This document shows, piece after piece, positions 14,211 through 30,769 of a DNA stretch of 34,105 nt; within the stretch, counting starts at the first letter, position 1; each line of letters starts with the position of its first letter. Made by a program: the position numbers and the translations under genes. This DNA comes from Candidatus Eiseniibacteriota bacterium (GTDB taxonomy: Bacteria > Joyebacterota > Joyebacteria > Joyebacterales > Joyebacteraceae), in assembly GCA_030613615.1 (NCBI GenBank), contig JAUWLR010000015.1, forward strand, positions 1-34,105. The letters run 5' to 3'. The notes under the pieces are model-generated. The model had not been told where the DNA came from. It did no database searches and saw only the letters and a program-made list of their open reading frames with translations.

Positions 14211-14226
14211 TGGCACAGTCTGTGCA
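14211..14226 (+). promoter_or_regulatory. Sigma-54-type promoter of the minor-pilin operon
   Basis: TGGCACAGTCTGTGCA has a strong -24 half (TGGCAC) and GC at -12, with the required 10 bp between GG and GC. The -12 box has G where TTGC has its first T. It lies about 100 nt upstream of the first PilX-like gene. Confidence 0.6.
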
Positions 14227-14326: not shown

Positions 14327-15697
14327 ATGAACTCGACGCGAAAGACACTGACAGGCGAGTCAGGCTCCACGCTGGTCGTAGTCATGATCTGCGCATTGGT
14401 CATGCTCATCACCGCTCTCGCGCTCGTCCAACTGGGCGCTCAGGACGCGGCGCTCGCGCTCCGCGATGTGAGAGTGTCGCAGGCGTTCTACAACGCCGAA
14501 GCGGGCGCGGAACGGGGGGAAGCATGGCTTGGAGATCAGACTAACATGCCAACGACGCCGACCATGCCGTTCAGCAGCAGCCCCGAGAGCTTCGGCGGTG
14601 GCCTCATGCTCGTCTCCATCACACCCGACGCGTCCGGGTCACGAATCATCTACACGATCCGCTCTCTCTCGACGGTCCAGGGTAAGTCGCACGCCATCGA
14701 GGTCGATCTGACGCCCACCGCATTCACGGACTACCTCTACTACACCAACAGCGACGTGGGTCCCGGCAGTCCCGGTTACTTCAGGACCGGCGACGTGGTC
14801 GACGGCCCGATCCACATCAACGACATGATGGCCATCTGGGGCGATCCGGTGTTCACGTCCGAGGTCCAGACGACGGCCACTGAGATCCAGTACTACAACG
14901 ACAACTCTCCGATTCAGTCGAGCGCGCTTGAGAACCCGCCACACGACTATCCGGACTTCCAGGAGGGCCTGCAGCTGGGAGCGGCCACGATCCCCTGGCT
15001 GTCCGAGTCCGACCTCAACACGCTCAAGGGCCTGGCCGGGCTGTCGCTGTCGAACCAGGAGCTCCGCTTCGGCCGCGATGACGGCTCCGGCCCCATGCTC
15101 GGCTACGTCAGCTACTCGAACATCGGCAACGACTCGTGGACCGACGTGGACCTCAGCAGCTTCAACGGCCTCATCTACGTCAACGGTTCGTGCCTGGTAT
15201 CCGGCATCGTGGACGGCCAGGCCACGCTCGTGAACAACGCCACGATCGAGATCGTCGGCGACCTGAGCTACGCGGGCAGCGATGCCAACGGACCGCTCCC
15301 GGACTGTGACGATATCCTGGGGCTGGTCGCTTCGACCAAGGTCAGCATCTCCGACAACGCGGCCAACAGCAGCGACTGCGTCATTCACGCGCACATCATG
15401 GCGATGAACAACCAGGCAGCGCTGGTCGAGAACTACAGCCAGGGGACGCCGCGCGGCACGCTCACTATTCACGGTGGGATCGCGCAGGACAAGTGGGGAC
15501 CCGTCGGAACCGGCTACTTCGACGAGGCGGGCGAGTTCCACCTGCTGACGGGCTACGAGAGGGACTTCCACTACGACTGGCGTCTGAGAGATATGCTGCC
15601 GCCGGGCTACGACGCGATCATATTCAACGGCGGCGGATTCAACAGACTTGTCTGGCGCGAGATCGCACCGGTTGATCTCACACATTGGGAAGGGTAG
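14327..15697 (+). CDS. PilX-like (DUF4900) pilus-associated protein, copy 1
   Basis: A 456-residue protein with a prepilin-like N-terminus: a short leader ending GESG, then a hydrophobic helix STLVVVMICALVMLITALAL, and the PilX signature VSQAFYNAEAGAERGEAWL. The Glu usual at +5 of mature pilins is absent. The rest (about 75-456) is a large extracellular part resembling DUF4900, with DYLYYTNSDVGPGSPGYF, DGPIHINDM, CDDILGLVAS, VIHAHIMAMNNQ and TLTIHGGIAQDKWGPVGTGY. GGGAGGATGACTC precedes the ATG. It begins a four-gene minor-pilin operon behind a sigma-54-like promoter; 15 nt separate it from its paralogue. PilX-like minor pilins help start pilus assembly or mediate adhesion; the role of this large head is unknown. 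Confidence 0.85.
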   Translation: MNSTRKTLTGESGSTLVVVMICALVMLITALALVQLGAQDAALALRDVRVSQAFYNAEAGAERGEAWLGDQTNMPTTPTMPFSSSPESFGGGLMLVSITPDASGSRIIYTIRSLSTVQGKSHAIEVDLTPTAFTDYLYYTNSDVGPGSPGYFRTGDVVDGPIHINDMMAIWGDPVFTSEVQTTATEIQYYNDNSPIQSSALENPPHDYPDFQEGLQLGAATIPWLSESDLNTLKGLAGLSLSNQELRFGRDDGSGPMLGYVSYSNIGNDSWTDVDLSSFNGLIYVNGSCLVSGIVDGQATLVNNATIEIVGDLSYAGSDANGPLPDCDDILGLVASTKVSISDNAANSSDCVIHAHIMAMNNQAALVENYSQGTPRGTLTIHGGIAQDKWGPVGTGYFDEAGEFHLLTGYERDFHYDWRLRDMLPPGYDAIIFNGGGFNRLVWREIAPVDLTHWEG

Positions 15698-15712
15698 CGA
15701 AAGGATGAGACA

Positions 15713-17122
15713 ATGGACGGCATGAGGGGGACAAAGGGAGCTCCGCGCGAGCGGCCACATGCGAGATCGCTCGTGCGTGACGAATCAGGATCAACGCTGG
15801 TGGTGGTGATGGTCTTCGCCATCATCATGCTCATAAGCGTGATGGCCATCATGGAGATCGGCGCGCAGGACGCCGTTCTCGCGGTCCGTGATGTCCGCAC
15901 CTCACAGGCGTTCTACAATGCCGAGGCCGGAGCGGAAAGAGGCGAGGCCTGGCTCAGCGGACAGTCCTCATTGCCGACCGGCCCGACCGAGCCGTTCAAC
16001 GACGACCCCGAGGCGTTCGCGGGAGGTCTGTACCACATCGTTATCACTCCCGACGCGTCGGGAGCGCGGACCATCTATACGGTGACGTCGTACGCCACCG
16101 TCGACGGCCGCTCGAAGGCGATCGAGGTCGATCTGACGCCCACCGCGTTCTCGGATTACCTCTACTACACCAACAAAGACGTGGGTCCCGGCACTCCCGG
16201 CTATTTCAGGACCGGCGACGTGGTCGATGGCCCGATCCACATCAACGACATGATGGCCGTCTGGGGCGATCCGGTGTTCGCGTGCGAGATTCGTACGACG
16301 GCCACTGAGATCCAGTACTACAACGACGGCTCTCCGATTCAGACGAGCGCGCTTGAGAACCCGCCATACGACTATCCGGACTTCCAGGAGGGCATACAGA
16401 TGGGGGTGGCCACGATCCCCTGGCTGGACGAGTCCGACCTCAACACGCTCAAGAGCTTGGCCGGGCTGTCGCTGGCGAACCAGGAGCTCCGCTTCGGCCG
16501 CGATGACGGCTCCGGCCCCATGCTCGGCTACGTCAGCTACTCGAACATCGGCAAGGACTCCTGGACCGACGTGGACCTCAGCAGTTTCAACGGCCTCATC
16601 TACGTCAACGGTTCGTGCATGGTATCCGGCATTGTGGACGGCCAGGCCACGGTCGTGAACAACGCCACGATCGAGATCGTCGGCGACCTGATCTACGCGG
16701 GCAGCGATGCCAACGGGCCGCTCCCGAACTGTGACGACATCTTAGGGCTGGTCGCTTCGACCAAGGTCGTCATCTCCGACAACGCGGCCAACGGCAGCGA
16801 CTGCGTCATTCACGCGCACATCATGTCGATGAACAACCAGGCCTCCCTGGTCGAGAACTACAGCCAGGGGACGCCGCGCGGCACGCTCACCATTCACGGT
16901 GGGCTCGCGCAGGACAAGTGGGGGCCCGTCGGAACGGGCTACTACGACGGCGACGAGAACTTCCACCTGCTGACGGGCTACCAGAGGGACCTCCACTACG
17001 ACTGGCGTCTGAGAGACCTGATACCGCCGGGCTACGAGTCGATCATATTCGCCGGCGGCGGATTCAACAGACTCGTCTGGCGCGAGATCACACCGGTGGA
17101 TCTCACGTGCTGGGAGGGCTAG
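15713..17122 (+). CDS. PilX-like (DUF4900) pilus-associated protein, copy 2
   Basis: A 469-residue tandem paralogue of the preceding gene. From about residue 120 the two proteins are nearly identical; the first 120 residues and the last few segments differ more. The leader is longer (26 residues, ending RDESG), followed by STLVVVMVFAIIMLISVMAI and the shared TSQAFYNAEAGAERGEAWL. The Glu at +5 is again missing. Differences cluster in short patches such as TSEVQTTA/ACEIRTTA and the segment around YYDGDENFHLLTGY, so the duplication is fairly recent or is kept alike by gene conversion. A start with weak GAAAGGATGAGACA upstream fits. It is followed by the PilW-like gene after 38 nt. Confidence 0.85.
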   Translation: MDGMRGTKGAPRERPHARSLVRDESGSTLVVVMVFAIIMLISVMAIMEIGAQDAVLAVRDVRTSQAFYNAEAGAERGEAWLSGQSSLPTGPTEPFNDDPEAFAGGLYHIVITPDASGARTIYTVTSYATVDGRSKAIEVDLTPTAFSDYLYYTNKDVGPGTPGYFRTGDVVDGPIHINDMMAVWGDPVFACEIRTTATEIQYYNDGSPIQTSALENPPYDYPDFQEGIQMGVATIPWLDESDLNTLKSLAGLSLANQELRFGRDDGSGPMLGYVSYSNIGKDSWTDVDLSSFNGLIYVNGSCMVSGIVDGQATVVNNATIEIVGDLIYAGSDANGPLPNCDDILGLVASTKVVISDNAANGSDCVIHAHIMSMNNQASLVENYSQGTPRGTLTIHGGLAQDKWGPVGTGYYDGDENFHLLTGYQRDLHYDWRLRDLIPPGYESIIFAGGGFNRLVWREITPVDLTCWEG

Positions 17123-17160
17123 CAGACGGACGAGAAAACGGCCAACAAGAGGGTGTGCTT

Positions 17161-17676
17161 ATGAAAGCAATACACATTGACAAGCGACTTGGGCGCCGGC
17201 TCGACGGCAACGGCGGGTTCACTCTCGCGGAGATAATGGTCGTCGCGGCCGCCTCCGTAGCCGTTATCCTCTCGGTAGCTGTGGCCTATGTCGGGACGGT
17301 GCGGTCGTGGAACGGTACGGCGGGCCTTCTCGAGATCCAGCGTGAGGCCTCACTCGTCACGGGGATGATCCAGAACGTGGTGCGCCCGGCGAGCAGCCTT
17401 GCCGTGACACCGGGAGCCCACGGCGACTCGCTCGAGGTGTACTACGAAGTGGCCAGCGGAGACAGCTTGGTCGCCGAGTTCTACCTCGATGGCGCCGGGA
17501 ACCTGATGGACATCAATGGGATCACGGTGGCATCCTACATCGACTCGATCGACTTCGTCGTGTACGGGCGCACACTACACATCGACGGCTGGTTCAGAAG
17601 CGACATCGGAACGCCGAACAGGTTGACAGACGACCAGAGAGTGCAGATATCCGGAACGGCTATCTGCAGAAACTGA
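17161..17676 (+). CDS. PilW-like minor prepilin
   Basis: A 171-residue type IV prepilin. The leader of 19 residues is basic and ends in NGG; the cleavage site is G^FTLAEIMVVAAASVAVIL, with Phe at +1 and Glu at +5 as prepilin peptidase and assembly require. The hydrophobic helix is followed by a segment typical of PilW (LLEIQREASLVTGMIQNVV). The ATG at 17161 gives this leader; GAGGGTG lies upstream. The frame is open further upstream but overlaps the preceding gene. PilW-type minor pilins help prime the pilus. It lies third in the minor-pilin operon, 22 nt before the next gene. Confidence 0.85.
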   Translation: MKAIHIDKRLGRRLDGNGGFTLAEIMVVAAASVAVILSVAVAYVGTVRSWNGTAGLLEIQREASLVTGMIQNVVRPASSLAVTPGAHGDSLEVYYEVASGDSLVAEFYLDGAGNLMDINGITVASYIDSIDFVVYGRTLHIDGWFRSDIGTPNRLTDDQRVQISGTAICRN

Positions 17677-17698
17677 GAACCATGATCAGGAGGAAGCA

Positions 17699-18280
17699 AT
17701 GAACGCACGAAGCCCGCGCGGGCTGATGCGGCGAGCCTGGGCGACCGCGGCCCACAGACTCGGACTGCGTGAGGACCGCGGACACAACCGCGCAGAGAGG
17801 CGACGCTCTCGTCGGCTTGGGAGAGCGCGGAACCAGAGAGGCGTGACCGTGATAGAGATCATGGTCTCGGTCGTCGTCCTCGCGATCGTTATCGCGCCGA
17901 TGTTCGATGCTTTCGTGAGGGGAAGGGTCATGGTAGCACACCGCGGGGAAGAGCGGGTGGCGCTGAGGCTGGTCGAGAGGAAGGTCGAGCAGCTGCTCGC
18001 GGCAGGAGGGGCGATGACAGGGAGCGACGCGGACATCACCAGCACCCACATGGCCGCCGGAACTCACCCGATCAACTCTGCCATAACGCTCATCACTCGC
18101 GGCGACCTGGACACCTCAAACGATGTCATCGGCGACCTGACGTGGGAAGTGACCTCCGTCACGTGGTCGGACGCTGGAGGCACGTGGGACGACGCGACCT
18201 ACAAGCACGTCGTGACCAAGCTGGCGTGGCCACTGGGCGCGCACCGTGACAGCGTCTCGGTGATCACGATCATCAACTGA
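17699..18280 (+). CDS. PilV-like minor prepilin with an unusually long basic leader
   Basis: A 193-residue prepilin with cleavage site NQRG^VTVIEIMVSVVVLAIVI (Glu at +5) and the motif FVRGRVMVAHRGEERVALRLVERKVEQL in pieces typical of PilV/PulG-type pseudopilins. The leader is 48 residues long, with about 17 Arg or Lys, whereas most class III leaders have 5-25. The start is nevertheless well supported: GGAGGAAGCA lies right before the ATG at 17699, and no later ATG precedes the cleavage site except M10. It is the last gene of the minor-pilin operon; a terminator follows at 18361. Confidence 0.85.
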   Translation: MNARSPRGLMRRAWATAAHRLGLREDRGHNRAERRRSRRLGRARNQRGVTVIEIMVSVVVLAIVIAPMFDAFVRGRVMVAHRGEERVALRLVERKVEQLLAAGGAMTGSDADITSTHMAAGTHPINSAITLITRGDLDTSNDVIGDLTWEVTSVTWSDAGGTWDDATYKHVVTKLAWPLGAHRDSVSVITIIN

Positions 18281-18414: not shown

Positions 18415-19176
18415 CTACCCCAGGAGTGACGAGTACCACGCCAGCGCCGACTCACCCCAGAGCAGCGCCAGCACGGCGCCGAGGGCGATGAAGGGCCCGA
18501 ACGGCAGACTGCTGTCCCAGTTCTTAGGCTTGCGGGCCATCACGATCACGCCGACGACGGCGCCTATGAAGAAGGCGACGAAGAGCGAGATCAGAACCAG
18601 CTTCCAACCCATGAACGCGCCGAGCATGGCCGCGAGCTTGACGTCTCCCCCACCCATGCTCTCCTTCTTCAGGAACAGCTCACCCAGGACGCCTATCAGA
18701 TAGAGCGCCCCGCCACCGACCACCACACCCAGAAGCGAGTCCCAGAATCCCACGAGCCCGACGAGGGGAGCGACGATGATCCCGACCACGATGCCGGGCA
18801 GAGTCACCCTGTCGGGAATGATACGGAGGTCCAGGTCGATGAAGGAGAGCAGAAGGAGCACACAGGAGAGCAGCCAGTAGACGAAGAAGGGGACGGTCAG
18901 GCCGAATCGCATGAACAGAAGCACGGGCAGGACACCTGACAGCACCTCGACGACCGGGTACCGTGGAGAGATGCGTGCCGCGCAGTATCTGCACTTCCCG
19001 CGCAACAGCAGGTAACCCAGCACGGGAATGTTGTCCCGCGCACGAAGGCGGGTGCCGCAGGCGGGACAGGCCGATGGAGGCCTGACAATCGATTCGCCGC
19101 GCGGCACCCGATAGATGACTACGTTGAAGAAGCTCCCGAGTATCGACCCAACGATGAATAGAGCCGCTTCCGTCAA
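18415..19176 (-). CDS. pilD: Prepilin peptidase / N-methyltransferase
   Basis: A 253-residue inner-membrane enzyme that cleaves prepilin leaders and methylates the new N-terminus. The N-terminal cytoplasmic part has GSFFNVVIYRVPRGESIV and two CxxC pairs (CPACG and CRYC) that bind zinc. The aspartyl catalytic residues lie in LSFIDLDLRIIPD and in GGGDVKLAAMLG, the GxGD-type motif. Seven to eight hydrophobic segments are visible. The start is TTG, directly after the pilQ stop (TAG-TTG), with GGGGAG six bases upstream, so it is translationally coupled to the secretin gene. It is the last gene of the machine operon. Confidence 0.95.
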   Translation of the reverse strand: MTEAALFIVGSILGSFFNVVIYRVPRGESIVRPPSACPACGTRLRARDNIPVLGYLLLRGKCRYCAARISPRYPVVEVLSGVLPVLLFMRFGLTVPFFVYWLLSCVLLLLSFIDLDLRIIPDRVTLPGIVVGIIVAPLVGLVGFWDSLLGVVVGGGALYLIGVLGELFLKKESMGGGDVKLAAMLGAFMGWKLVLISLFVAFFIGAVVGVIVMARKPKNWDSSLPFGPFIALGAVLALLWGESALAWYSSLLG

Positions 19177-20598
19177 CTACTTCTCCCCCATTATCTCCGC
19201 GAGCCTTGCGGTCTTGCGCTCGGTGATCCGCTTGAGCGCCTCGGGTCCGAGGATTCTCGGAGTGATGAACACCATTACCTCTGAGTCCACCTCGCTCTCG
19301 ACGCTCTTGCGGAAGAGCCGCCCGAGCAGCGGGATGTCACCGAGGAGCGGTACCTTGAAGTGAGTCTCGTTGACGTCCTTCCGGAGGAGACCGCCAATGA
19401 CGATCGTCTCACCGTCCCGCGCCATCACCGTCGTCTTCGCCGTCCTCTTCCTCGTGTCTACCGCCTCATCCGGGAAGTAGGCCGATCGCGCTGCCGAGCT
19501 TACCTCGGGCTCGATGGTCATGGTAACGAAATCGTCGTTGTTGACGTGAGGCGTTACCTTGAGCGTGACGCCCACGTCGCCGTAGAGGGGCTCGATGGTC
19601 AGGTACCCATCGGGAGAAACGGTCGTCTTCTTGGCCATCGCGATGTGCGACGTGATGGCGATGATCGCTTCCTGGTTGTCGATGGTCAGGATCTGCGGCG
19701 AGGCAAGCACCTTGGCGAGTCCGTCACGCTCCATCGCCCTGATACGCGCGCTGATGTCCTGGAACCCGTCGATGAAGGAGTGCCACTTGCCGAAGCTCAG
19801 GTCCAGCAGACCCTCCATCGCCTTGTGCTCCACCAGGGTCGAGACAGTCTCCCACACGCCGGTCTCATCGTTCTGCACCAACTCATGTTGCCACTGGTGG
19901 ACGTAGTTGAACCCGCCGCCATACGACGTGCCCTGCTCAGTGTCGTAGCCCGAGTAGCCCCACTCGACTCCCAGATCGAGATTGGCCTCGTCGGCCACTT
20001 CGACGATCTGCGCCTCGATGAGAACCTGTCCCGTGGGGTTGTCGAGCTCCCGCACGATCGACTCGATTGTCGACATGTTCTCCGGGATGTCGGACACGAC
20101 CATCGCGTTTGTCCGCTGGTCCACGACGACGGTGCCGACCTCGGTCAGCACGGCCTCGATCGTGGGCTTCAGCATCACGGCGTCGGCGAAGTCGGTGTGG
20201 AAGACATCCGTCACGGTCGCCACTGGCGGGCCGTCCGGAGATTCCATAATGACGTAGATGTTCGTGCCCTTCTGGCGCGTGTACCACAGACCGTTGGCCT
20301 TCATGATCGCCGCCAGGGCGTCCTCGACGAGAACGTCCTCAAGGTAGACGTTGATCGTCTTCCCGGTCAGGCCGCTTCCGATGAGAAAGTTGATACCGGT
20401 CTTCTGCGTCATGACCTTGAGCACGCTGCCCAGCGTCACGCTCGTCAGATTCAATGAGAGTCTCTGACCCCGCTGGTCCGTGTTCGTCGCCCCACTCTGT
20501 GACCATGCGGGCGAGCACGTGACAATCAGCAGGGCGGCGACCACCGCGATGATCGTGAAGAAGCGGTACGCCTTGTCTGTCGATTTCCGGACCATCAT
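19177..20598 (-). CDS. pilQ: Type IV pilus secretin PilQ
   Basis: A 473-residue secretin that forms the outer-membrane channel for the pilus. A Sec signal peptide covers about residues 1-32 (hydrophobic FFTIIAVVAALLIV, cleavage after AWS). An N0/STN domain follows (LSLNLTSVTLGSVLKVM, TINVYLEDVLVEDALAAIM), then an N1 domain ending in LIEAQIVEVADEANLDLGV, then the secretin core with VLASPQILTIDNQEAIIAI and the late motif DGETIVIGGLLRKD, VPLLGDIPLLGRLF. It is shorter than proteobacterial PilQ because there is no AMIN peptidoglycan-binding domain. It implies an outer membrane. It directly abuts pilD and lies 10 nt after pilP. Confidence 0.95.
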   Translation of the reverse strand: MMVRKSTDKAYRFFTIIAVVAALLIVTCSPAWSQSGATNTDQRGQRLSLNLTSVTLGSVLKVMTQKTGINFLIGSGLTGKTINVYLEDVLVEDALAAIMKANGLWYTRQKGTNIYVIMESPDGPPVATVTDVFHTDFADAVMLKPTIEAVLTEVGTVVVDQRTNAMVVSDIPENMSTIESIVRELDNPTGQVLIEAQIVEVADEANLDLGVEWGYSGYDTEQGTSYGGGFNYVHQWQHELVQNDETGVWETVSTLVEHKAMEGLLDLSFGKWHSFIDGFQDISARIRAMERDGLAKVLASPQILTIDNQEAIIAITSHIAMAKKTTVSPDGYLTIEPLYGDVGVTLKVTPHVNNDDFVTMTIEPEVSSAARSAYFPDEAVDTRKRTAKTTVMARDGETIVIGGLLRKDVNETHFKVPLLGDIPLLGRLFRKSVESEVDSEVMVFITPRILGPEALKRITERKTARLAEIMGEK

Positions 20599-20608
20599 GT
20601 CAGACCTC

Positions 20609-21151
20609 CTAGTCTACGGTCAGTACGTATTGCTTCGACCCAAACGACAGCACGACGCTGTCGGTCCTGATCTCCACGACCCTTGCTCCCTTGATTCGAT
20701 CGCCGACGTGGAGATCTAATCCATCTATCATCACAACGGGATTCTGGGGGTCCCAGATGATCCCGGAAAGCCACATCTTCGGAAGCCTGGTTACCGCTCT
20801 GGCCGGGGCCTCGGTCTGCGGTTGTGCAGTGGTCTTGAGCACTCCGGCGGGCGCAACCATCGGATCCCTGACCTCCCCGGTTTCGACGGCGTACTCGTCC
20901 TGTCCGTCCGCCCGGCTTATCTTGCCGACCATCACGAGGTGCGCGTAATCGGCATCCAGCAGTCCGACGGGACCATTCCAATTCACGTTGCCCGAGGCGG
21001 CGAGTTCGTCAATCGCGGCGCCTCCTGACATGAACGAGACGATCGCCGCCGTGACCGCTATGACGGCAGACATAGTAGCCGCGACGGGCTTCGCCTTGCC
21101 GTGCAGCTTGGCCGCGAGACCGGTTGCCTGTGGCGGTAGTTTCAGGCCCAA
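20609..21151 (-). CDS. pilP: PilP-like inner-membrane lipoprotein-type alignment protein
   Basis: A 180-residue protein with one N-terminal membrane helix (about 25-42, AATMSAVIAVTAAIVSFM) and a C-terminal beta domain of the PilP/GspC homology-region type (MWLSGIIWDPQNPVVMIDGL, LHVGDRIKGARVVEI, SVVLSFGSKQYVLTV). The linker is Pro- and Ala-rich. There is no lipobox, unlike proteobacterial PilP, so it would be anchored by the helix as GspC is. It connects PilN/PilO to the secretin in the periplasm. It lies 3 nt after pilO and 10 nt before pilQ. Confidence 0.8.
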   Translation of the reverse strand: MGLKLPPQATGLAAKLHGKAKPVAATMSAVIAVTAAIVSFMSGGAAIDELAASGNVNWNGPVGLLDADYAHLVMVGKISRADGQDEYAVETGEVRDPMVAPAGVLKTTAQPQTEAPARAVTRLPKMWLSGIIWDPQNPVVMIDGLDLHVGDRIKGARVVEIRTDSVVLSFGSKQYVLTVD

Positions 21152-21154
21152 ACT

Positions 21155-22102
21155 CTATCCCTCCCATGCCGCGAGTGCGAGGAGCACCGTGGCCTCGCTG
21201 TCGCGTTCCCTGCTGTCTGCGTCAGATCTGATCTCGACCTCCTCGAGCAAGGTGAACCTCGGCGAGCCCTCGAGCAGAGACAGGAACTCACCTATCTCGC
21301 GGAAGGTGCCCCTGATTCGAAGTCGCAGGGGGTACTCCACGAGATGCCCGGAGACATCGCGAGCAAGCAGCAGATCGGGGTCTCCCATTATCTTCACGCC
21401 GGACCCTTCGGCCATCAGCCTGACCTCAGACATGACGGTCAACCGCTGGTCGCCGGTCATCAGGCCGTCCTTGAACACGCCGATGGCCGCGTCGGCCCGC
21501 TCTATGACCACGTAGTCGTGGAGTAGGCTCTTCTGCTCCTGCACCAGGTGCAAACGCCTGCTCGTGGGCTGCATGATGAGGAAGTGGACGGAACCGACGG
21601 CAAGTGCGTAAACGCACACCACGAGAACAGCTGTCTTACCCAGCGTGTTCGCCCGCCAGGAGGCCCGAAGCCAATGGGAGTCAATCCTCAGCAGCCCGAG
21701 GCCGCGAATCTTCCCCGCCTTCCGGACGGCTGCCGGCTCGTCGACTTCGCTTTCGCCGGCCGCCACCTCATCGGGGTCCTCCGCGCCCGCGGCGTCCTCG
21801 CCGCCTTCGGTGCCCGCGGCACCATCAGCGCCCGCGGCACCATCAGCGTCCGCGGCACCATCAGCGCCCGCGGCATCCATGGCGTCTCCGGATGCGTCGA
21901 GAGTCCCATCCTTCGTGTTGTCAACGACGCCCGTGTCGAGGGCATCGCCGGAAGCCCCGAGCGGGCTTCCCGGCTGCCCCTCAGACTCCGTGGCGTCAGA
22001 CGACGAGTCAGACACACCATCGGCCTGAGCCAGAAGGTCGTCCTCCGGTCGTCCGGTTCTCTCGTCGTCACGTCTGTACTCGCTGCCGTCTGGAATCTTC
22101 AC
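21155..22102 (-). CDS. pilO: PilO-like inner-membrane alignment protein with a long acidic N-terminal extension
   Basis: A 315-residue protein. Residues about 155-315 are PilO-like: one membrane helix (LGKTAVLVVCVYALAVGSVHFL), a coiled segment, and a ferredoxin-like fold (YPLRLRIRGTFREIGEFLSLL, FTLLEEVEI). Residues 1-130 are a disordered, acidic Ala/Asp/Gly/Ser-rich extension that should be cytoplasmic, followed by a basic patch (VRKAGKIRGLGLLRID). Within it, six-residue units of DGAAGA type repeat, encoded by 18-bp tandem repeats. Typical PilO has about 200 residues and a very short cytoplasmic end. It lies 58 nt after pilN. No SD stronger than GGAGAG is seen. Confidence 0.8.
   Translation of the reverse strand: MKIPDGSEYRRDDERTGRPEDDLLAQADGVSDSSSDATESEGQPGSPLGASGDALDTGVVDNTKDGTLDASGDAMDAAGADGAADADGAAGADGAAGTEGGEDAAGAEDPDEVAAGESEVDEPAAVRKAGKIRGLGLLRIDSHWLRASWRANTLGKTAVLVVCVYALAVGSVHFLIMQPTSRRLHLVQEQKSLLHDYVVIERADAAIGVFKDGLMTGDQRLTVMSEVRLMAEGSGVKIMGDPDLLLARDVSGHLVEYPLRLRIRGTFREIGEFLSLLEGSPRFTLLEEVEIRSDADSRERDSEATVLLALAAWEG
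21813..21884. repeat. 18-bp tandem repeat in the pilO extension
   Basis: Four units of 18 bp. Two are identical (CCCGCGGCACCATCAGCG), the third differs by one base, and the fourth is degenerate. In the pilO frame each encodes A-D-G-A-A-G or a close variant. The length is a multiple of three, so unit number may vary without breaking the gene. Confidence 0.85.
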
Positions 22103-22160
22103 GTTCTCTCCTGCTCTTCCACACCACCCGGTCGTCCGCTCACCTTGAAGCGAGCACCGA

Positions 22161-22775
22161 CTAGAACGCGCAGGCTATCTCGAATCCTACGACGCTGGTG
22201 CCGCGTATCTGCGCGAGGCCGGTTCCCAGGGATTCAACGCTCTGAATGATGCTCTGGAGTTTCTCGTCGTCCTCGAGGTTCTCGACAAACGCACTGATGG
22301 CCTGGTCACCCTCGGGACCTCGACCTGCCAAGGCCACGCCTTCGATTATGATGCCCCTGAAAGAGCGGGATTTGCCTCTCGCTCCCTCTTCGGCATCCCT
22401 GAGGTCCGCAATGCTGACTCGTGTGAGCCACACACCGTCGGGCACCGCCTTGGCGATGCTCTCCCAGATCGGTGTGAAACAGATGCGACCATCCACGATC
22501 TTCGCGAGGTCCTTCAGATGGGGCTTTGTCTTCCCGATGATCATCTCGAGCTCGTCCTCGCCGGGAATGCCCGGATACTGGACGGTGAAATGCTCTCGGA
22601 GCTCGATGATCTCGGCCGCATAGACATCGGCCATCCGAAGATCGGAGACCGAGACGGCGCCCATGCTCGCGAGAGTCAGACCCAGCGAAAGTGCGGAGAA
22701 CGCCACAATGGCCGTGACGATCTTCTTCCTGCTCTCAGGGACTATCCGCTGACCTATGAAGTTGATGTCGTACAC
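22161..22775 (-). CDS. pilN: PilN-like inner-membrane alignment protein
   Basis: A 204-residue protein starting with the short cytoplasmic motif MYDINFIGQRI, whose INF segment is the PilM-binding site in PilN proteins. One membrane helix follows (about 18-42), then a coiled region and a periplasmic ferredoxin-like domain (WESIAKAVPDGVWLTRVSI). The start is GTG, 3 nt after the pilM stop, so it is probably coupled to it. It pairs with PilO to form the scaffold that links the cytoplasmic motor to the secretin. Confidence 0.85.
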   Translation of the reverse strand: MYDINFIGQRIVPESRKKIVTAIVAFSALSLGLTLASMGAVSVSDLRMADVYAAEIIELREHFTVQYPGIPGEDELEMIIGKTKPHLKDLAKIVDGRICFTPIWESIAKAVPDGVWLTRVSIADLRDAEEGARGKSRSFRGIIIEGVALAGRGPEGDQAISAFVENLEDDEKLQSIIQSVESLGTGLAQIRGTSVVGFEIACAF

Positions 22776-22778
22776 TTG

Positions 22779-23801
22779 CTAGTTTGGGTCCTTTTTCATT
22801 GCCAGTGCCGCCGCGAGCGATGAGATCGGGGCGAGCCTCTTAACCGCCTCCGCATCGAATCGCGTGTCGTCCACACGAACCCTGTCCAACGGGCTCCAGC
22901 TGACGACCTGAAGACCAGCCATCTCGGAGATCGCATCACCGAGCCCCGGTACGATCGAGGCGCCCCCGCACATGAAGAGCGCGTCGACCTGCGTACCGTC
23001 CCCCCTCGTCTGGTAGTACCTGAGCGAGCGGGAGAGCTCGCCGACCAACCGCCGCGTCACGTGCTCGATTGCCCGCGCGGAAGCCAGCTCCCGCTCGGGC
23101 TCCATGACCTTCGTCGTCTCGGCGTCTTCCAGCGTCACGGAGAGCGCGTCTGCGATGGCCTGCGTGTAGTCGTTGCCACCAATCTCGATGTCGCGAACGA
23201 ACGGGACAGCTCCCTTTCGCGCTATTCCGACGCTCGTGCTCGAAGCGCCTATGTCGATGACACCGCAGGTCTCCGGCAGCTCCTCTTCCAGAAGCAGAGC
23301 GTCGAGCAGCACCAGCGCGTCGACTCCGACCACTCTGGGCTCGAGTCCAGCTTCCTCGAGTACGGCTATCTTGGCGTCCACCGTCTCTTTGCGCGCGGCG
23401 ACGAAGAGCACGTCCATCATGTCCGACGGCGACGCCTCGGATTCGATGACACAGTGGTCGAGGTAGGAACCGTTGAGCTCGAACCCGATAACCTGACTGC
23501 CCTCGTACCTGAGAGCCCCATCCAGCTCCGCCCTGCCCAGCGCGGGGAATCGCATACCTCTCACGGCAACCTTGCGTCCGCTGACCGAGATCGCGCTGTG
23601 GTTGGTCACCAGGTCCTTCCCCTCCAGCACGAGCGACATGGCGTTTCCGTACGCGGAGGACGATGCGTCGTCCGGGACGGCGACAACGGATATGTTCTCG
23701 AGTTCGAATGCCCTGGGAGAACCGGAAAGCTCGACCAGCTTCACCGAAGTGGAGCCTATGTCGACGCCCACCAACCCCCTGTGCTGTTCTGTCTTGCGCA
23801 C
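22779..23801 (-). CDS. pilM: Type IV pilus assembly protein PilM, actin-like
   Basis: A 340-residue cytoplasmic protein with an actin/FtsA fold. The phosphate-1 loop is GLVGVDIGSTSVKLVEL near residues 9-25, the phosphate-2 loop CGVIDIGASSTSVGI near 180-195, and FMCGGASIVPGL near the C-terminus forms the adenosine loop. PilM binds ATP and recruits PilN. Spacing to pilN is 3 nt. Upstream, a short hairpin (CGGGCC-N6-GGCCCG, about 23825-23842) and a 20-bp tandem repeat separate it from the pilin gene. Confidence 0.9.
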   Translation of the reverse strand: MRKTEQHRGLVGVDIGSTSVKLVELSGSPRAFELENISVVAVPDDASSSAYGNAMSLVLEGKDLVTNHSAISVSGRKVAVRGMRFPALGRAELDGALRYEGSQVIGFELNGSYLDHCVIESEASPSDMMDVLFVAARKETVDAKIAVLEEAGLEPRVVGVDALVLLDALLLEEELPETCGVIDIGASSTSVGIARKGAVPFVRDIEIGGNDYTQAIADALSVTLEDAETTKVMEPERELASARAIEHVTRRLVGELSRSLRYYQTRGDGTQVDALFMCGGASIVPGLGDAISEMAGLQVVSWSPLDRVRVDDTRFDAEAVKRLAPISSLAAALAMKKDPN

Positions 23802-23850
23802 TTGTCCTCTGCTCCTGCTTCCCCGGGCCCCGTGAGGCCCGCCCCCGACC

Positions 23851-23890
23851 GAGATCGCTCAGAACACTCTGAGATCGCTCAGAACACCCT
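23851..23890. repeat. 20-bp tandem direct repeat over the pilA2 stop codon
   Basis: The bases 23851-23870 and 23871-23890 are 19 of 20 identical (GAGATCGCTCAGAACACTCT and the same with ACCCT). On the minus strand each copy reads R-V-F-stop, so the last residues and stop codon of the pilin gene are duplicated in the 3' untranslated part. Confidence 0.9.
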
Positions 23891-24316
23891 AGTCAAGTCT
23901 CCGCCCTCGTCCATCGTGACCACGATCGTCGCAACCTCCGACCCGAAGGGCGCAACACTCTGCCCACCATCGCACTTGACCGTGAACGCGTTCGCGGACG
24001 GAGCCCCGTCAAACATGTAGCACTCCGAACTGAAGTAGCGGCCCGCGAGGTCGTTGTTGCTGACGCCCAGAAGTCCTCCGTTCGTTACCCGTGCACCATC
24101 CGTGAAGAGCGATGGGTTTGCGAAGGTCCCGTGCTCGACGTAGTAGACGCGCATGGCGCTTCGGATCATCCCGAGAGCGGCAATGGCCTCGGTGGATTTC
24201 GAGCGCTGGGGGACCATCTGGAACATGGGAAAGGCGATAGCCGCCAGCACGCCTATGATGGTGACGACTATCATCATCTCCGTCAGAGTGAAGCCCCGCT
24301 GGTTTCGCCCAAACAT
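23879..24316 (-). CDS. Type IV pilin, second major-pilin-like gene
   Basis: A 145-residue prepilin with a short leader (MFGRNQRG) and mature N-terminus FTLTEMMIVVTIIGVLAAIA with Glu at +5. A globular part with strands follows; two Cys (in CYMFDG and TVKCDG) are well placed for the C-terminal disulphide loop of pilins. The product is about 40% alike PilA1 by eye and has the same length. The ATG at 24316 gives the leader typical of pilins; the frame is open 52 codons further upstream but this part is not pilin-like. GGGGAG lies upstream. The gene follows PilA1 after a 186-nt gap that contains a strong hairpin. Confidence 0.88.
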   Translation of the reverse strand: MFGRNQRGFTLTEMMIVVTIIGVLAAIAFPMFQMVPQRSKSTEAIAALGMIRSAMRVYYVEHGTFANPSLFTDGARVTNGGLLGVSNNDLAGRYFSSECYMFDGAPSANAFTVKCDGGQSVAPFGSEVATIVVTMDEGGDLTRVF

Positions 24317-24446
24317 GATGCCTGCTCCCCAGAACATGTGTCGAACTGACTGACTGGTTCCGCGCCGGATCGCCTGTGCCACCTCCGACCGAACCGGATC
24401 ATAACCTGCCTTAGCAACTTCCCCTACCCTGCCCCCCTCTCGAATC

Positions 24447-24476
24447 GGGGGCGGCGCCACGGAGGGCGCCACCCCC
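24447..24476 (-). other. Strong hairpin between the two pilin genes
   Basis: On the minus strand GGGGGTGGCGCC and GGCGCCGCCCCC pair over 12 bp with a 6-nt loop. The single imperfect pair is a G-U wobble in minus-strand RNA and a C-A mismatch in plus-strand RNA, so the minus strand is favoured. It lies 26 nt after the pilA1 stop. There is no T-run. It could be an attenuator or an mRNA 3'-end stabiliser that raises pilA1 output over the downstream genes. Confidence 0.6.
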
Positions 24477-24502
24477 GCTCATGGTCACATCGTTGGCACG
24501 AA

Positions 24503-24934
24503 CTAGCCGTTCGTGATGGTGCCGTTATGATCGATGAACCGTATGATCGTAGCGACTTCCGTCCCGTACGGAGCGGCGCTCAGTGCGCCATCGCACTCGA
24601 TGGTGTAGGTAGTAGCATCCGGGGCGCCGCTGAACGTGTAGCACGCACCGCTGAAGTACCTACCGAGAAGATCGTTCACACTGACGTCCAGAACGCTACC
24701 ATTCGTCACGAGCGCGCCGTCCGTGAAGCTGGCATGCACGTACGTGCCATGCTCGGCGTAGTAGACCCGCAACGCACCGCGAATCGTGCCCAGTGCAGCC
24801 ACCGCCTCCGACGCCTTAGCACGCTCAGTCGCGCCCTGATACATCGGAATGGCCACAGCCGCCAGGATGCCGACGATGATGACAACGATCATCAGCTCGA
24901 CAAGTGTGAAACCCCCCTGGTTCTTGCGCAGCAT
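24503..24934 (-). CDS. pilA: Type IV major pilin
   Basis: A 143-residue prepilin with leader MLRKNQGG and mature helix FTLVELMIVVIIVGILAAVA, with Phe +1 and Glu +5. The globular domain has strands and a Cys pair (CYTFSG ... IECDG) suited to a disulphide-bounded loop. It has the strongest ribosome binding site of the operon, AAGGAGGTG, nine bases before the ATG, which fits a major subunit. It lies 46 nt after pilC, and a strong hairpin follows. It is the best candidate for the main pilus subunit. Confidence 0.93.
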   Translation of the reverse strand: MLRKNQGGFTLVELMIVVIIVGILAAVAIPMYQGATERAKASEAVAALGTIRGALRVYYAEHGTYVHASFTDGALVTNGSVLDVSVNDLLGRYFSGACYTFSGAPDATTYTIECDGALSAAPYGTEVATIIRFIDHNGTITNG

Positions 24935-24980
24935 TTGTATTCACCTCCTTCCTGCTCTCTTAAGGCCTCTGGATGCCCAC

Positions 24981-26183
24981 CTACTCGATTCCAGTCGCCA
25001 TCTGGAATATCGGCAGGTAGATTGCGAGCACGACCACGGTGACAATCGCTCCGAGTCCCACAATGAGAATCGGTTCGATCATCGAGGTCAGCCCGCTTAT
25101 CGCCGCGTCGACTTCACGCGTGTAGAAATCGGATATCTTGTTCAGCATCTCCGGCAGGTTTCCGGAGCTCTCTCCTGCGGCCACCATGCTGACGACCATC
25201 TTCGGGAACACGCTCGACTCCCCGAGTTTCTCGGAGATCGTGGAGCCGTTAATCACACCGACGCTCACGTTGTCCACGGCCGCCTTGACCACCGCGTTAC
25301 CGGCCGTCTCCCCGACGATCTCCAGGGCAGCTACGACTGCGACGCCGTTGTCCATGAGCGTGCTGAGCGTGCTGCTGAAGCGCGCCACGGCGGCCTTGAG
25401 GATGAGCTTGCCGAAGACCGGGGTTCTGAGCAGCCAGCCGTCGACCGTGCTCTTGCCGACGGGCGTCTTGTGCCACTTCCAGAAGGCGTAGATACCACCG
25501 CCGGCGAGCACGATCTCGTAGATGAGATAGCGCCCGATGAACCTGGATGTCGCCATCAGGAACTTGGTCAGGGGTGGGAGCTGCATATCGAAGCTCGCGA
25601 AGATGCTCTCGAACTGCGGGATCAAGAACAGCATGATCCCGGCCACTGCCATGATGAAGAACCCGGCGATGAACGCCGGGTATGCCGACGCTGCGCGAAT
25701 CTTGCACGTCATCGCGTCCTTGGCCTCGAGGTAGTCTCCCAGCCGCTGGAGCACGTTCGGCAGCGCGCCTGATTCTTCTCCCGCACGAATCATCGAGGTG
25801 AAGAGTTTCGAGAAGACCTTCGCGTGCTTCCCGAAAGCCGCGCACAGCGTCGAGCCGGCCTCAATGTCGTCCGCTATCTCCCGGAGCACACTTGCCATCG
25901 TCACGTGGTCGGACTGGTCCGCGATGCTCTGGATCGACTCGAGCACCGGCAGGCCCGCGCCCAGCATCGCGCCCATCTGGCGGCAGAAGATCGCAAGGTC
26001 CTTCGTCTTGACCTTCTTGCCCTTCTTGGTGCGGGTGGGCGTGATGGGAGCCGGAGAGACGGCCACGACGACCAGATCCTCCTTCCGCAGGGCCGAGACG
26101 AGTGACATCTCGCTCTCCGCGAACCTGGTTCCCTGGACCGTCCTACCGTTCGGTGTCTTGGCTGTGAAGATGAACTCTGGCAT
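24981..26183 (-). CDS. pilC: Type IV pilus inner-membrane platform protein PilC
   Basis: A 400-residue T2SSF-family protein. The N-terminal part (MPEFIFTAKTPNGRTVQGTR) and the two cytoplasmic T2SSF repeats are visible (IFCRQMGAMLGAGLPVLES near residue 70 and RFSSTLSTLMDNGVAVVAAL near 265). Membrane helices lie about 165-190, 215-235 and 370-395. It forms the platform that the ATPases PilB and PilT turn. GAGGGACC lies ahead of the ATG. The gap to pilT upstream is 36 nt, so the two should be co-transcribed. Confidence 0.95.
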   Translation of the reverse strand: MPEFIFTAKTPNGRTVQGTRFAESEMSLVSALRKEDLVVVAVSPAPITPTRTKKGKKVKTKDLAIFCRQMGAMLGAGLPVLESIQSIADQSDHVTMASVLREIADDIEAGSTLCAAFGKHAKVFSKLFTSMIRAGEESGALPNVLQRLGDYLEAKDAMTCKIRAASAYPAFIAGFFIMAVAGIMLFLIPQFESIFASFDMQLPPLTKFLMATSRFIGRYLIYEIVLAGGGIYAFWKWHKTPVGKSTVDGWLLRTPVFGKLILKAAVARFSSTLSTLMDNGVAVVAALEIVGETAGNAVVKAAVDNVSVGVINGSTISEKLGESSVFPKMVVSMVAAGESSGNLPEMLNKISDFYTREVDAAISGLTSMIEPILIVGLGAIVTVVVLAIYLPIFQMATGIE

Positions 26184-26219: not shown

Positions 26220-27293
26220 CTAAGCCTTCACTGACCTCGAGAGCTCACGCATGATTCCCTTGATGTCGTTCGAGCAAGCGATGGCCTTATCAGTCGTGAT
26301 GCGCTTCTCGCTCTCCAGCCTCAGGAGCGATGAGTTCATGCTGTGCATGCCGTCCTTCGCGCCCGTCTCGATCGCCGACCTGAGCTGCTGAAGATTGTTC
26401 TCACGGATCAGGTTGCGAACGGCCGCGTTGGCAACCATCACCTCGGTTGCAAGTACTCTGCCCGATCCGCTCGCGTCCGGAAGCAGCTGCTGCACCAGGA
26501 CTCCCTGCAGCGACAGCGATATCTGCGTTCTCACGCCCTGCTGCTCGTGCGGCGGGAAGATGTCGACGATTCGGCTGATCGCCTGAGGGGCCTCGCTCGT
26601 GTGCACCGTCGTCAGCACCAGGTGGCCCGTCTCCGCCATTGTCAGAGCGGTGCGGACCGTCTCCAGATCTCGGATCTCCCCGATGCAGATGACGTCCGGG
26701 TCCTGTCGAAGCACCTGACGAACCGCCGAGGCAAAAGAGGGCGCGTCGCGGCCTACCTCGCGCTGGTTGATAATCGAGAACTTGTGGCGGTGCAGGTACT
26801 CGATGGGGTCCTCAATCGAAAGTATGTGGACGTTCTTGTTGTCGTTGATGTAGCAAAGCATCGAGGCCAGTGTCGTCGACTTGCCGGATCCGGTGGGTCC
26901 GCTGACGAGCACGAGGCCGTTCAGCTTCTCGCAGAAGTCCTTCATGACCAGCGGGACTCCGAGCTCTTCCATCGTAGGGATCTCCCACGGGAGGTGCCGG
27001 ACGGCGGCGGCGACGCTTCCCCGCTGGTAGTAGATGTTGAGCCTGAAACGCCCAAGTCCCTCCACACTGAACGAGGTGTCCAGCCCCTTGTCGGCTTCGA
27101 ACCTGGCGATCTTCTTCTCGTCGATCATCGCGTAGGAGAGCGCGCGGCTCTCTTCGGGACCCAGGGGCGGATAGTCCGCGGCAACGAGCGCTCCGTCGAT
27201 CCTGATCTGCGGGGGAACGCCGGAGGTGATATGGAGATCCGAGGCCTTGCGCTCGACCACTTCCTCAAGCAGCTTCCGAATTTCCGTAGTCAT
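26220..27293 (-). CDS. pilT: Type IV pilus retraction ATPase PilT
   Basis: A 357-residue hexameric ATPase that retracts pili and powers twitching. Visible are Walker A SGPTGSGKST (131-140), the Asp box (SIEDPIEYLH), Walker B (CIGEIRDLET), the His box HLVLTTVHT (224-232), and the PilT-specific motif AVRNLIRENNLQQL (291-304). It has no tetracysteine motif, which separates it from PilB. The ATG at 27293 (MTTEIRKLLE) matches the family start; the upstream open frame of 72 codons is not PilT-like. The sigma-54 element at 27484-27499 predicts a long leader of about 180 nt. Confidence 0.95.
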   Translation of the reverse strand: MTTEIRKLLEEVVERKASDLHITSGVPPQIRIDGALVAADYPPLGPEESRALSYAMIDEKKIARFEADKGLDTSFSVEGLGRFRLNIYYQRGSVAAAVRHLPWEIPTMEELGVPLVMKDFCEKLNGLVLVSGPTGSGKSTTLASMLCYINDNKNVHILSIEDPIEYLHRHKFSIINQREVGRDAPSFASAVRQVLRQDPDVICIGEIRDLETVRTALTMAETGHLVLTTVHTSEAPQAISRIVDIFPPHEQQGVRTQISLSLQGVLVQQLLPDASGSGRVLATEVMVANAAVRNLIRENNLQQLRSAIETGAKDGMHSMNSSLLRLESEKRITTDKAIACSNDIKGIMRELSRSVKA

Positions 27294-27483: not shown

Positions 27484-27499
27484 TGCAAACCCCATGCCA
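27484..27499 (-). promoter_or_regulatory. Sigma-54 promoter of pilT
   Basis: The minus strand reads TGGCATGGGGTTTGCA: GG and GC lie exactly 10 bp apart and both the -24 (TGGCA) and -12 (TTGCA) boxes match the sigma-54 consensus well. It lies 190 nt upstream of the pilT ATG. Confidence 0.8.
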
Positions 27500-27523
27500 G
27501 TAATGCCAATGGGTGATGTAGTT

Positions 27524-27552
27524 GCTAACTCGCGCGCTGTCAGCCAGTTAGC
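27524..27552. promoter_or_regulatory. 29-bp inverted repeat, candidate enhancer site upstream of pilT
   Basis: GCTAAC and GTTAGC, perfect complements, are separated by 17 bp. The repeat ends 24 bp before the sigma-54 element. The same architecture and distance occur at pilB. It overlaps the last codons of the small prepilin-like ORF. Confidence 0.7.
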
Positions 27553-27695
27553 GCGTCTGGAGCCCCCCGTGACACTCGGAGGGCTCCGTGAACCATCAGA
27601 TTGCCTCGCATCCTGCACGAGCGGGCGGCATAGGCTGACAGCACGGTGACCATGAACCCGGCGAGCGTGAAGCCCCGCGTTCCGCTCGGCGACAC
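27540..27695 (-). CDS. Small prepilin-like ORF between pilB and pilT (possible pilin remnant)
   Basis: A 51-codon frame from GTG at 27695 to TGA at 27540, beginning 22 nt after the pilB stop with GGAGG seven bases before the GTG. The N-terminus reads MSPSGTRG and then FTLAGFMVTVLSAYAA, which is a typical short leader, cleavage site G^F and start of a pilin helix. Glu +5 is replaced by Gly, and the hydrophobic stretch is cut short by RSCRMRGN. No globular domain follows. Either a degraded pilin gene or a tiny prepilin-peptidase substrate. A hairpin (about 27557-27586) lies in its second half, and its 3' end overlaps the inverted repeat of the pilT promoter. Confidence 0.5.
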   Translation of the reverse strand: MSPSGTRGFTLAGFMVTVLSAYAARSCRMRGNLMVHGALRVSRGAPDALTG

Positions 27696-27717
27696 GGGGG
27701 CGCCTCCGGCCAGTCCA

Positions 27718-29286
27718 TCAGGGACCGCTTGGCGGCTTGCTCACCCTGTCCGACTCCATGGCGACGCTCAGGACCTCGTCCAGTGTCGTCACTCCTTCCT
27801 TGACCTTGCCCATGCCGCTGATGAGCAGGGTCTGCATCCCGTCCTCGAGGGCCTGGTCCCTGACCCTGGTTCCCAGCTCCCCCAGCAGCACGAGGTTCTT
27901 GACCTCGCGCGTGATCGGGAAGAGCTCGTAGACGGCAAGCCGACCCTTGTAGCCGGTCCCGGAGCACTCATCGCACCCGGCTCCGTGGTAGAACGTCACA
28001 TCGCCCTCATCGGGCATGGCGCGTCGGAAGCGCGCCACGAGCGCCGGGTCGGGCTCATACGGCTCCCTGCATTCCGTGCAGATCTTGCGGACCAGCCGCT
28101 GCGCAATGACCAGGTTCAGCGAGGTGCAGATGAGATAGGGCTCCACTCCCATGTTCAGGAGCCTGTCGATCGACGACGTCGCGTTGTTCGTGTGGAGCGT
28201 GCTGAACACGAGGTGGCCGGTCTGCGCGGCCTTGATGGCGATCGACGCGGTCTCGAGGTCTCGGATCTCACCAACGAGGATCACGTCCGGGTCCTGCCTG
28301 AGGAACGAGCGCAGTGCCGCCGCGAAGTCCAGCCCGATCGTGGGGCGTGCGCTCACCTGGTTGATCCCCGCGAGCTCATACTCGACGGGGTCCTCCACCG
28401 TCATGATGTTCTTGTCCGGTGAGTTGATCTTCGTCAGAGCGGAGTAGAGCGTCGTCGTCTTGCCACTGCCCGTCGGCCCTGTGAGCAGGATCATCCCGTG
28501 CGGCTGGGCGATGGCGTTGTGGATCATGCCCAGTGATGACCGATCGAACCCCAGATCCTCGAGATCGGTCTTGAGGTTGCTCCTGTCGAGGAGCCGCATC
28601 ACGACCTTCTCGCCGTACAGGACCGGAATCGTCGAGATACGTATGTCGATAGCGCGGCGCATGATGCGCACCCTGCAGCTGCCATCCTGCGGGAGTCTGC
28701 GCTCGGCGATGTCGAGCCCCGCCAGGATCTTGATGCGCGAGGTGATCGCCCACTGCATCCTCTTGGGAGGAGGAAGGATCTCCCTCAGCACGCCATCGAC
28801 CCTCAGCCTGACGGCGAGGGTCTTCTCCCTGGGCTCGATGTGGATGTCGCTCGCCCGTTCCTCCATCGCCTGAAGGAGGATCAGGTTGACGAGGCGGATG
28901 ACCGGCGCATCGTCGGGGTCGATCGAGAGCTGCTCGGGGTCGAGGTTTCCCCCGCTCCCGTCCGCCACCTCCACATCAACGATGCTCTGGATGCTCTGCT
29001 CGATGTCGATGGTGTCGCTGTAGTACTTGTCTATGGCTGAAGTGATGTCTTCGGCGTCGGCCCGTCTGGGAGTCACCTCGTAGCCGGTGTTGGCCGCGAT
29101 GGTATCCGTGGCGATGACGTCCAGCGGGTCCTCCATGGCAAGGATAAGAGCGTCGTCTTCCTGCCCCACGGCGACCAGGCGGAAGCGCTGGGCCATCTCG
29201 CGCGGAACGAGCCTCACAACGTGAGGATCGATCTCCATGCTGGACAGGTCCAGCCGTTCAGGCTCGTGCGGATGCGCAGTTTCCAA
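27718..29286 (-). CDS. pilB: Type IV pilus extension ATPase PilB
   Basis: A 522-residue GspE/PilB ATPase that drives pilus extension. Only the second half of the usual MshEN N-terminal domain is present (DLSSMEIDPHVVRLVPREMAQ to DITSAIDKYY). The core has Walker A TGPTGSGKTTT (269-279), Walker B VGEIRDLET, the His box HLVFSTLHTNN, and a four-Cys zinc site (CTEC at 403-406, CDEC at 438-441) typical of extension ATPases. The start is TTG at 29286, after a GGGGGGG stretch; an ATG at 29238 would lose conserved residues and has no SD. The upstream open frame begins before the sigma-54 promoter and is not used. It is followed by a small prepilin-like ORF. Confidence 0.92.
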   Translation of the reverse strand: METAHPHEPERLDLSSMEIDPHVVRLVPREMAQRFRLVAVGQEDDALILAMEDPLDVIATDTIAANTGYEVTPRRADAEDITSAIDKYYSDTIDIEQSIQSIVDVEVADGSGGNLDPEQLSIDPDDAPVIRLVNLILLQAMEERASDIHIEPREKTLAVRLRVDGVLREILPPPKRMQWAITSRIKILAGLDIAERRLPQDGSCRVRIMRRAIDIRISTIPVLYGEKVVMRLLDRSNLKTDLEDLGFDRSSLGMIHNAIAQPHGMILLTGPTGSGKTTTLYSALTKINSPDKNIMTVEDPVEYELAGINQVSARPTIGLDFAAALRSFLRQDPDVILVGEIRDLETASIAIKAAQTGHLVFSTLHTNNATSSIDRLLNMGVEPYLICTSLNLVIAQRLVRKICTECREPYEPDPALVARFRRAMPDEGDVTFYHGAGCDECSGTGYKGRLAVYELFPITREVKNLVLLGELGTRVRDQALEDGMQTLLISGMGKVKEGVTTLDEVLSVAMESDRVSKPPSGP

Positions 29287-29365
29287 GTCTCGCCCCCCCC
29301 TATGCGTGTCGAGTGGCGAGGCGGCCGACGCCCATGAGCGTACGGACGCACTCAAGACCTTGGAC

Positions 29366-29381
29366 TGCAAGGCACATGCCA
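29366..29381 (-). promoter_or_regulatory. Sigma-54 promoter of pilB
   Basis: The minus strand reads TGGCATGTGCCTTGCA with GG-N10-GC spacing and full -24 (TGGCA) and -12 (TTGCA) boxes. Transcription should begin about 29355, giving a 70-nt leader before the TTG start. Confidence 0.82.
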
Positions 29382-29405
29382 ATTATGACAACGTGTGCTA
29401 GAGGT

Positions 29406-29434
29406 GTTAACTGATAGCCAGCTGGTGGGTTAAC
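29406..29434. promoter_or_regulatory. 29-bp inverted repeat, candidate enhancer site upstream of pilB
   Basis: Two GTTAAC half-sites separated by 17 bp, ending 24 bp before the sigma-54 element, exactly as at pilT. The outer half-site contains the TAA stop codon of the HD-GYP gene. Confidence 0.7.
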
Positions 29435-30593: not shown

Positions 30594-30769
30594 TGGCCTC
30601 CCCTTCCAGAACCGACCGAGCCCTGGCACTCGAGTAGAACTGTACGGGCCTCAAGCCCGCCATCACACAAGTGACGTCGAAAGCAAGTTTCGTTCCACCG
30701 GGGTCTTGTGAAGGTAGGTCAGTGGGGCCGCGTGCGCGTGTCGGCGCGACGACACACAGGAATGCGGAA

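Follow-up and report, generated by a model that had tools for sequence, protein, structure and literature searches.

The pilus locus described here is very probably under the control of PilR. In the window, which is the whole stretch of 34,105 nucleotides that was analysed, three pilus transcription units can be defined from gene spacing (pilB, pilT, and a PilX-like gene), and each has a module of an inverted repeat followed by a sigma-54 element. These repeats are very probably operators of PilR, whose PilS-PilR system is encoded at another locus of this genome (G000:C168), and one signal would then serve all the pilus units.

Operator-promoter modules of the pilus locus

A first-pass annotation of this DNA had reported sigma-54 elements of the form GG-N10-GC at pilB and pilT, each with a 29-bp inverted repeat ending 24 bp upstream, and these details are exact. 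Both elements contain TGGCA and TTGC, as is characteristic of sigma-54 promoters. If transcription begins 12 nt past the GC, which would place the predicted starts near 29355 for pilB and near 27473 for pilT, both repeats are centred near -65. At its upstream end, the pilB repeat shares bases with the HD-GYP stop codon. A third module in the window (14150-14226, +), preceding a PilX-like gene, had been missed in the first-pass annotation (Table 1). For the comparison of sites, core spacing is counted from the end of GTTA to TGG, such that a core spacing of 26 equals the 24-nt gap between the 29-bp repeat and the element.

Table 1. Pilus genes, inverted repeats, and sigma-54 elements in the window
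Feature	Coordinates	Strand	Details
pilB operator (predicted, PilR)	29406..29434	-	29-bp inverted repeat GTTAAC-N17-GTTAAC, GTTAACCCACCAGCTGGCTATCAGTTAAC
pilB sigma-54 -24/-12 element	29366..29381	-	TGGCATGTGCCTTGCA, perfect consensus match
pilB, extension ATPase	27718..29286	-	TIGR02538 611 bits (below the 675.65 cut-off); PF00437 and MshEN above cut-offs
pilT operator (predicted, PilR; pilT and following genes)	27524..27552	-	29-bp inverted repeat GCTAAC-N17-GTTAGC, GCTAACTGGCTGACAGCGCGCGAGTTAGC
pilT sigma-54 element	27484..27499	-	TGGCATGGGGTTTGCA, perfect consensus match
pilT, retraction ATPase; heads a putative long operon	26220..27293	-	TIGR01420 454 bits (cut-off 319.1)
Putative rest of the pilT operon	18415..26183	-	pilC, two N-methyl pilin genes, pilM, pilN, a 315-aa gene without assignment, T2SSB-like, secretin (pilQ), prepilin peptidase (pilD)
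Third operator	14150..14178	+	CCTAAC-N17-GTTACG, CCTAACCTGTTGCCGTTAGCAGAGTTACG, core TAAC-N17-GTTA; the same in G002 and G004
Third sigma-54-like element	14211..14226	+	TGGCACAGTCTGTGCA, one mismatch; 32 nt past the third operator, 5' of the PilX-like gene
Pilin-like genes after the third module	14327..18280	+	PilX/DUF4900-type genes 14327-15697 and 15713-17122; more pilin-like ORFs to about 18280

The start of pilB is predicted to be the TTG at 29286, because the start of the longer ORF (29382) falls at the promoter element. The gaps between the genes from pilT to pilD are mostly short, therefore the pilT promoter probably drives pilT through the prepilin peptidase gene, a putative co-transcription judged from gene spacing. 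The PilX/DUF4900-type genes are on the opposite strand and face the pil genes. A further PilX-type pilin-like gene, on another contig (G000:C144:6347-6362, L032), has a perfect sigma-54 element and no TAAC repeat within 130 bp.

Six sigma-54-like sites with no more than one mismatch are present in the window and half of these, the ones at pilB, pilT, and the PilX-like gene, carry the repeat. The others lie inside pilT, inside pilC, and 5' of the HD-GYP gene. The last of these, TGGAACGAAACTTGCT (30682-30697, -), is just 5' of the HD-GYP response-regulator gene (29430-30629) and is without a TAAC repeat, therefore another activator may control this gene.

Conservation of the module and chance expectation

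Inverted repeats of this general form are common in the window, where 16 with perfect 6-bp arms and N17 are found against 14.6 expected from shuffles, therefore the repeat by itself means little. It had been proposed in the first-pass annotation that the equal lengths and distances at pilB and pilT make chance unlikely; this does not hold for a repeat of equal length taken alone, but it does hold for the core, the position, and the conservation. The features that are not due to chance are the TAAC/GTTA core, its placement relative to the sigma-54 element, and its conservation between genomes.

The nearest named relatives of this pilB are in Candidatus Eisenbacteria genomes. Across the family, the core of the pilB repeat has at most one mismatch in all 18 upstream regions investigated (17 of which are distinct), while the inner 17 bases vary freely. 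Core spacing is 26-27 in most of the 18 and 37-38 in four, which is longer by about one helical turn. The pilT module is kept within the genus, but four of its six members have a single mismatch in the core, which counts against the PilR reading. Comparison with relatives, which the first-pass annotation had suggested as a check, thus shows the repeats to be conserved in both close and family-level genomes. In dinucleotide shuffles of these 18 regions, an equally good match at an allowed spacing had P <= 0.003 in each; the regions are, however, relatives of one another and include two that are identical, and the choice of which spacings to allow was made with the data already in view.

A family pattern (TAAC-N17-GTTA and then, within 15-40 nt, TGGC-N8-TGC) has 40 matches in this genome and 19 family relatives, compared with 0 for the reversed pattern used as a control. 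Mere chance inverted repeats beside genuine sigma-54 promoters, for which the frequency of 6-bp-arm N17 repeats in the window (16 against 14.6) could be cited, are refuted by this control and by the conservation across genera, and this explanation can be given almost no credence. Outside the family there are five matches to the pattern, no more common than those to the reversed control, and these are not used as evidence.

A module profile, built from sites that include those at the ORP cluster, pilB, and pilT, finds four places in this genome at E <= 1: the ORP cluster, pilB, pilT, and a tolC-like gene. The search of the whole genome that the first-pass annotation had called for has produced further copies of the module, at the PilX-like gene and the ORP cluster. 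The regulated genes were collected by pattern and profile searching, and some may be missing from the lists. The genome itself is a draft assembled from metagenome data, with a completeness of 94.5% and a contamination of 5.8%.

That the repeat might belong to every sigma-54 promoter of this genome was considered and rejected, as most of the others inspected are without it. At two of these sigma-54-like promoters (G000:C36, L030; G000:C30, L051) there are instead GC-rich inverted repeats (CCCGCAG, CGCAGGGG) about 55 bp 5' of the element, which are perhaps sites of TPR-type activators. In other family genomes, the module is also found 5' of alanine racemase genes and of a secreted-protein family with an FFDDMESG motif (L075, L076, L077, L079, L080, L091, L092), at core spacings of 17, 20, 31, 32, and 34; the FFDDMESG gene of this genome (C166) has a sigma-54 element and no repeat. 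Genus g3 (L087 in G007, L088 in G018, L133 in G019) has a Spy/ZraP-like periplasmic gene that directly follows the gene for another response-regulator activator; its TAAC-N17-GTTA module has a core spacing of 39.

Candidate activators of the pilus modules

An rpoN gene, which the first-pass annotation had proposed to look for, is present in this genome (PF04552, 201 bits, E 1.3e-59), as are seven distinct convincing AAA+ activator genes. The protein encoded at G000:C168 has the architecture of PilR, with Response_reg, Sigma54_activat, and HTH_8 domains and a GSFTGA loop. The kinase beside PilR has a 6TM_PilS domain in G000, G008, and G009 (PF25323 scores of 37.2, 40.3, and 27.5 bits; the last is marginal against a cut-off of 27). 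A PilR orthologue with at least 78% identity is present in all 20 family genomes, and the recognition helix, INPSTLYRKLQRYGM, is identical in every one. In Eisenbacteria, as in G000, pilSR is encoded away from the pilus genes, and no module was found in the six pilSR neighbourhoods scanned; both observations count against PilR.

A second activator also has this type of operator at its own locus. At G000:C235 (1-6000, L127), a PAS-AAA+-Fis activator with the loop GSFTDA is encoded with two PF02579-like genes (one of the two matches is below cut-off), a DUF5320 gene, and two MinD-like ferredoxin ATPases. Based on its GAFTDA-type loop and the adjoining PF02579 and MinD-like genes, it is an ORP activator of the DVU2106 type. 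A TAAC-N17-GTTA and sigma-54 module lies between the activator and the ORP-like genes, and this module recurs in other genera and also in G097 and G025, there with one mismatch and spacings of 28-29. An activator gene close to another copy of the module, which the first-pass annotation had thought worth seeking, is thereby found. A near-copy (95%) of the ORP activator, truncated at a contig edge (G000:C123:3-896), is perhaps a result of strain mixture in the assembly.

Since the same operator type is also beside the ORP activator, sequence by itself does not tell which protein binds at pilB. The idea in the first-pass annotation of an operator-promoter module for one enhancer-binding protein is upheld as regards a conserved sigma-54 module, but the operator may serve two related activators and not just one. 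The recognition helices of the two are alike (STLYRKLQR in PilR and TTLWRKMKR in the ORP activator) and those of the other activators in G000 are unlike them, which may explain the common operator.

It is improbable that the ORP-cluster activator, with its DVU2106-like layout, is the only protein to read the pilB and pilT operators, coupling the pilus to the ORP/MinD-like genes. In its favour, the gene is directly 5' of the module in many family genomes, its product is the only other G000 activator with a TL-aromatic-RK recognition helix, and the profile search of this genome places the ORP-cluster site above pilB. However, the ORP activator was searched for and not found in G006 (100% complete), G008 (96%), and G017 (80%), all of which keep the pilB module, and this favours the C168 protein, PilR. 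Its absence from G005 and G015 is uncertain; C345 of G005 was considered and rejected, being a different activator of the TPR type. The operator between pilR and pilA in a second phylum, presented below, is moreover explained without an ORP activator.

It is conceivable, though on balance doubtful, that PilR and the ORP activator both bind the common operator and that the pilus and ORP genes are cross-regulated, which overlaps with the main reading in that PilR acts at pilB. The half-sites, inner length, and spacing are equal in the pilus and ORP promoter sets and the recognition helices are similar; however, the flanking and inner bases differ between the two sets, and related activators can discriminate by such bases.

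There is very little likelihood that the repeat is instead the site of a protein that is not an activator, such as a repressor, with the sigma-54 activator binding elsewhere. A repressor may also have a fixed site close to the promoter, and this operator type precedes several gene classes, but the operator recurs beside activator genes, most clearly at pilR, and of the genome's remaining sigma-54-like promoters, most of those inspected are without the repeat. In addition, there is little space for a further site at pilB, since the DNA upstream of the repeat codes for the end of the HD-GYP protein.

Evidence for PilR also comes from outside of the family. In other phyla, the closest homologues of the C168 protein are encoded in pilus clusters, arranged as pilT-pilC-pilS-pilR-pilin in G085, pilC-pilS-pilR in G025, pilB-pilT with pilS-pilR in G080, and pilS-pilR-pilA in G044. 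In G044, TAAA-N17-GTTA is present between pilR and pilA, at core spacing 26 before a perfect sigma-54 element. The generalised operator YAAS/STTR was scanned for in 23 pilR-pilA loci of the G044 phylum and in G085, with inner lengths of 9-24 and spacings of 5-69 (1,040 combinations). N17 was found at spacing 26 in seven loci, at 27 in three, and at 28 in one (G085), and every other combination was found in one locus at most; the strict rule fits only 10 of the 23 loci in the G044 phylum, which counts against the PilR reading. A whole-genome search of 80 genomes from this phylum for the generalised operator at spacing 26 gave 20 matches, against 0 for the reversed control, and 17 of these fall between the pilR-type HTH and the pilin gene, pilA. 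The YAAS/STTR degeneracy was chosen after inspection of the same loci, therefore this search is a test of location and not a fresh test of the motif. The Eisenbacteria module had already been defined when the work on the G044 phylum began, and the inner length and spacing agree. In the pilus loci of G028, G080, and G067, no matching operator was found on scanning. Before a pilC-like gene in G025 (C191, L268), a perfect TAAC-N17-GTTA is followed, at core spacing 29, by a perfect sigma-54 element; the response-regulator activator adjoining this gene has a different recognition helix, and the site is among the five out-of-family pattern matches.

As the operator also adjoins pilR in another phylum, the assignment to PilR draws on more than this locus. 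The activator is most likely PilR itself, judging from these sequence comparisons, with an operator that differs from the Proteobacterial one mentioned in the first-pass annotation. PilS would phosphorylate PilR, and phosphorylated PilR would bind both half-sites, TAAC and GTTA. The centres of the half-sites are 21 bp apart, about two helical turns, therefore a PilR dimer would sit on one face of the DNA. The AAA+ ring of PilR would assemble directly beside the sigma-54 polymerase waiting at -24/-12 and then open the promoter. With operators before pilB, pilT (and thus probably the whole pilT-C-pilins-M-N-Q-D operon), and the PilX-like gene, a single signal would switch on the locus. In some genera the gap is apparently longer by one turn, which suggests that distance may matter less than the face of the DNA. 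This is not a strict rule, as core spacing is 34 at the PilX-like site and 17-39 at sites before other genes.

Known systems and biological meaning

Control of pili by PilS-PilR and sigma-54 is known. The system proposed here resembles those of Pseudomonas aeruginosa, Myxococcus, and Geobacter in having a six-helix PilS, an NtrC-type PilR, and sigma-54 pilus promoters, and the likeness extends to the second phylum, where pilR is directly before pilA. The Pseudomonas-type PilR site contains TGTC and is further upstream, whereas the operator here is YAAS-N17-STTR, with its core 26-27 bp from the -24 box. The predicted targets also differ, since they include pilB and pilT, while the classical target in P. 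aeruginosa is pilA. In that species, pilB had been reported to be sigma-70 dependent and, in a 2018 paper, the set of genes controlled by PilR was called poorly characterised (PMC6058289).

The ORP operons and DVU2106 of Desulfovibrio vulgaris are alike in having an activator with a GAFTDA-type loop (GAFTDA in DVU2106; PMC4641369) beside a small PF02579 protein and MinD-like ferredoxin ATPases, and in their palindromic sites (PMC3897727, PMC4641369); this comparison with DVU2106 is one of layout. In the Desulfovibrio orp promoters, the activator sites lie at -88 and -131 and IHF sites intervene (PMC3897727), whereas the site here, centred near -65, leaves no space for an IHF-type spacer; an IHF-type bending site would hardly fit in the gap between repeat and element. 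DVU2114 is likewise a sigma-54 response regulator of pilus genes, but it controls Tad/Flp-type pilin genes (PMC3333781) and is set apart here by that description. Most palindromic sites in the D. vulgaris study have 3-8 bp between the arms (PMC3333781), compared with 17 bp between the core half-sites here. The first-pass annotation had regarded the site as unusually close to the promoter for an enhancer. The closeness is not very exceptional, as in D. vulgaris the largest share of sigma-54 promoters is less than 100 nt from the nearest activator site (PMC4641369).

No paper was found in the literature on the regulation of Eisenbacteria pili. Likewise, nothing was found that describes the operator or its nearly fixed position, nor its role at pilB and pilT or its sharing with the ORP activator, the Desulfovibrio sites having been compared by layout and position. 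A tentative and rather unlikely extension is that YAAS-N17-STTR at a fixed distance from -24 is an ancient PilR operator code of several non-Proteobacterial phyla that is also read by the ORP activator, which in Eisenbacteria would join pilus extension, pilus retraction, and the ORP/MinD-like system into a single cross-wired regulon.

Because the gap is nearly fixed and seems to change by about one helical turn at a time, it offers a natural test of how the activator ring must be oriented toward the sigma-54 polymerase. An operator that is testable and has a near-fixed geometry allows PilR targets to be predicted from sequence in groups that are represented here by metagenome-assembled genomes alone. 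It would also place the two pilus motors, pilB and pilT, under the PilR switch.
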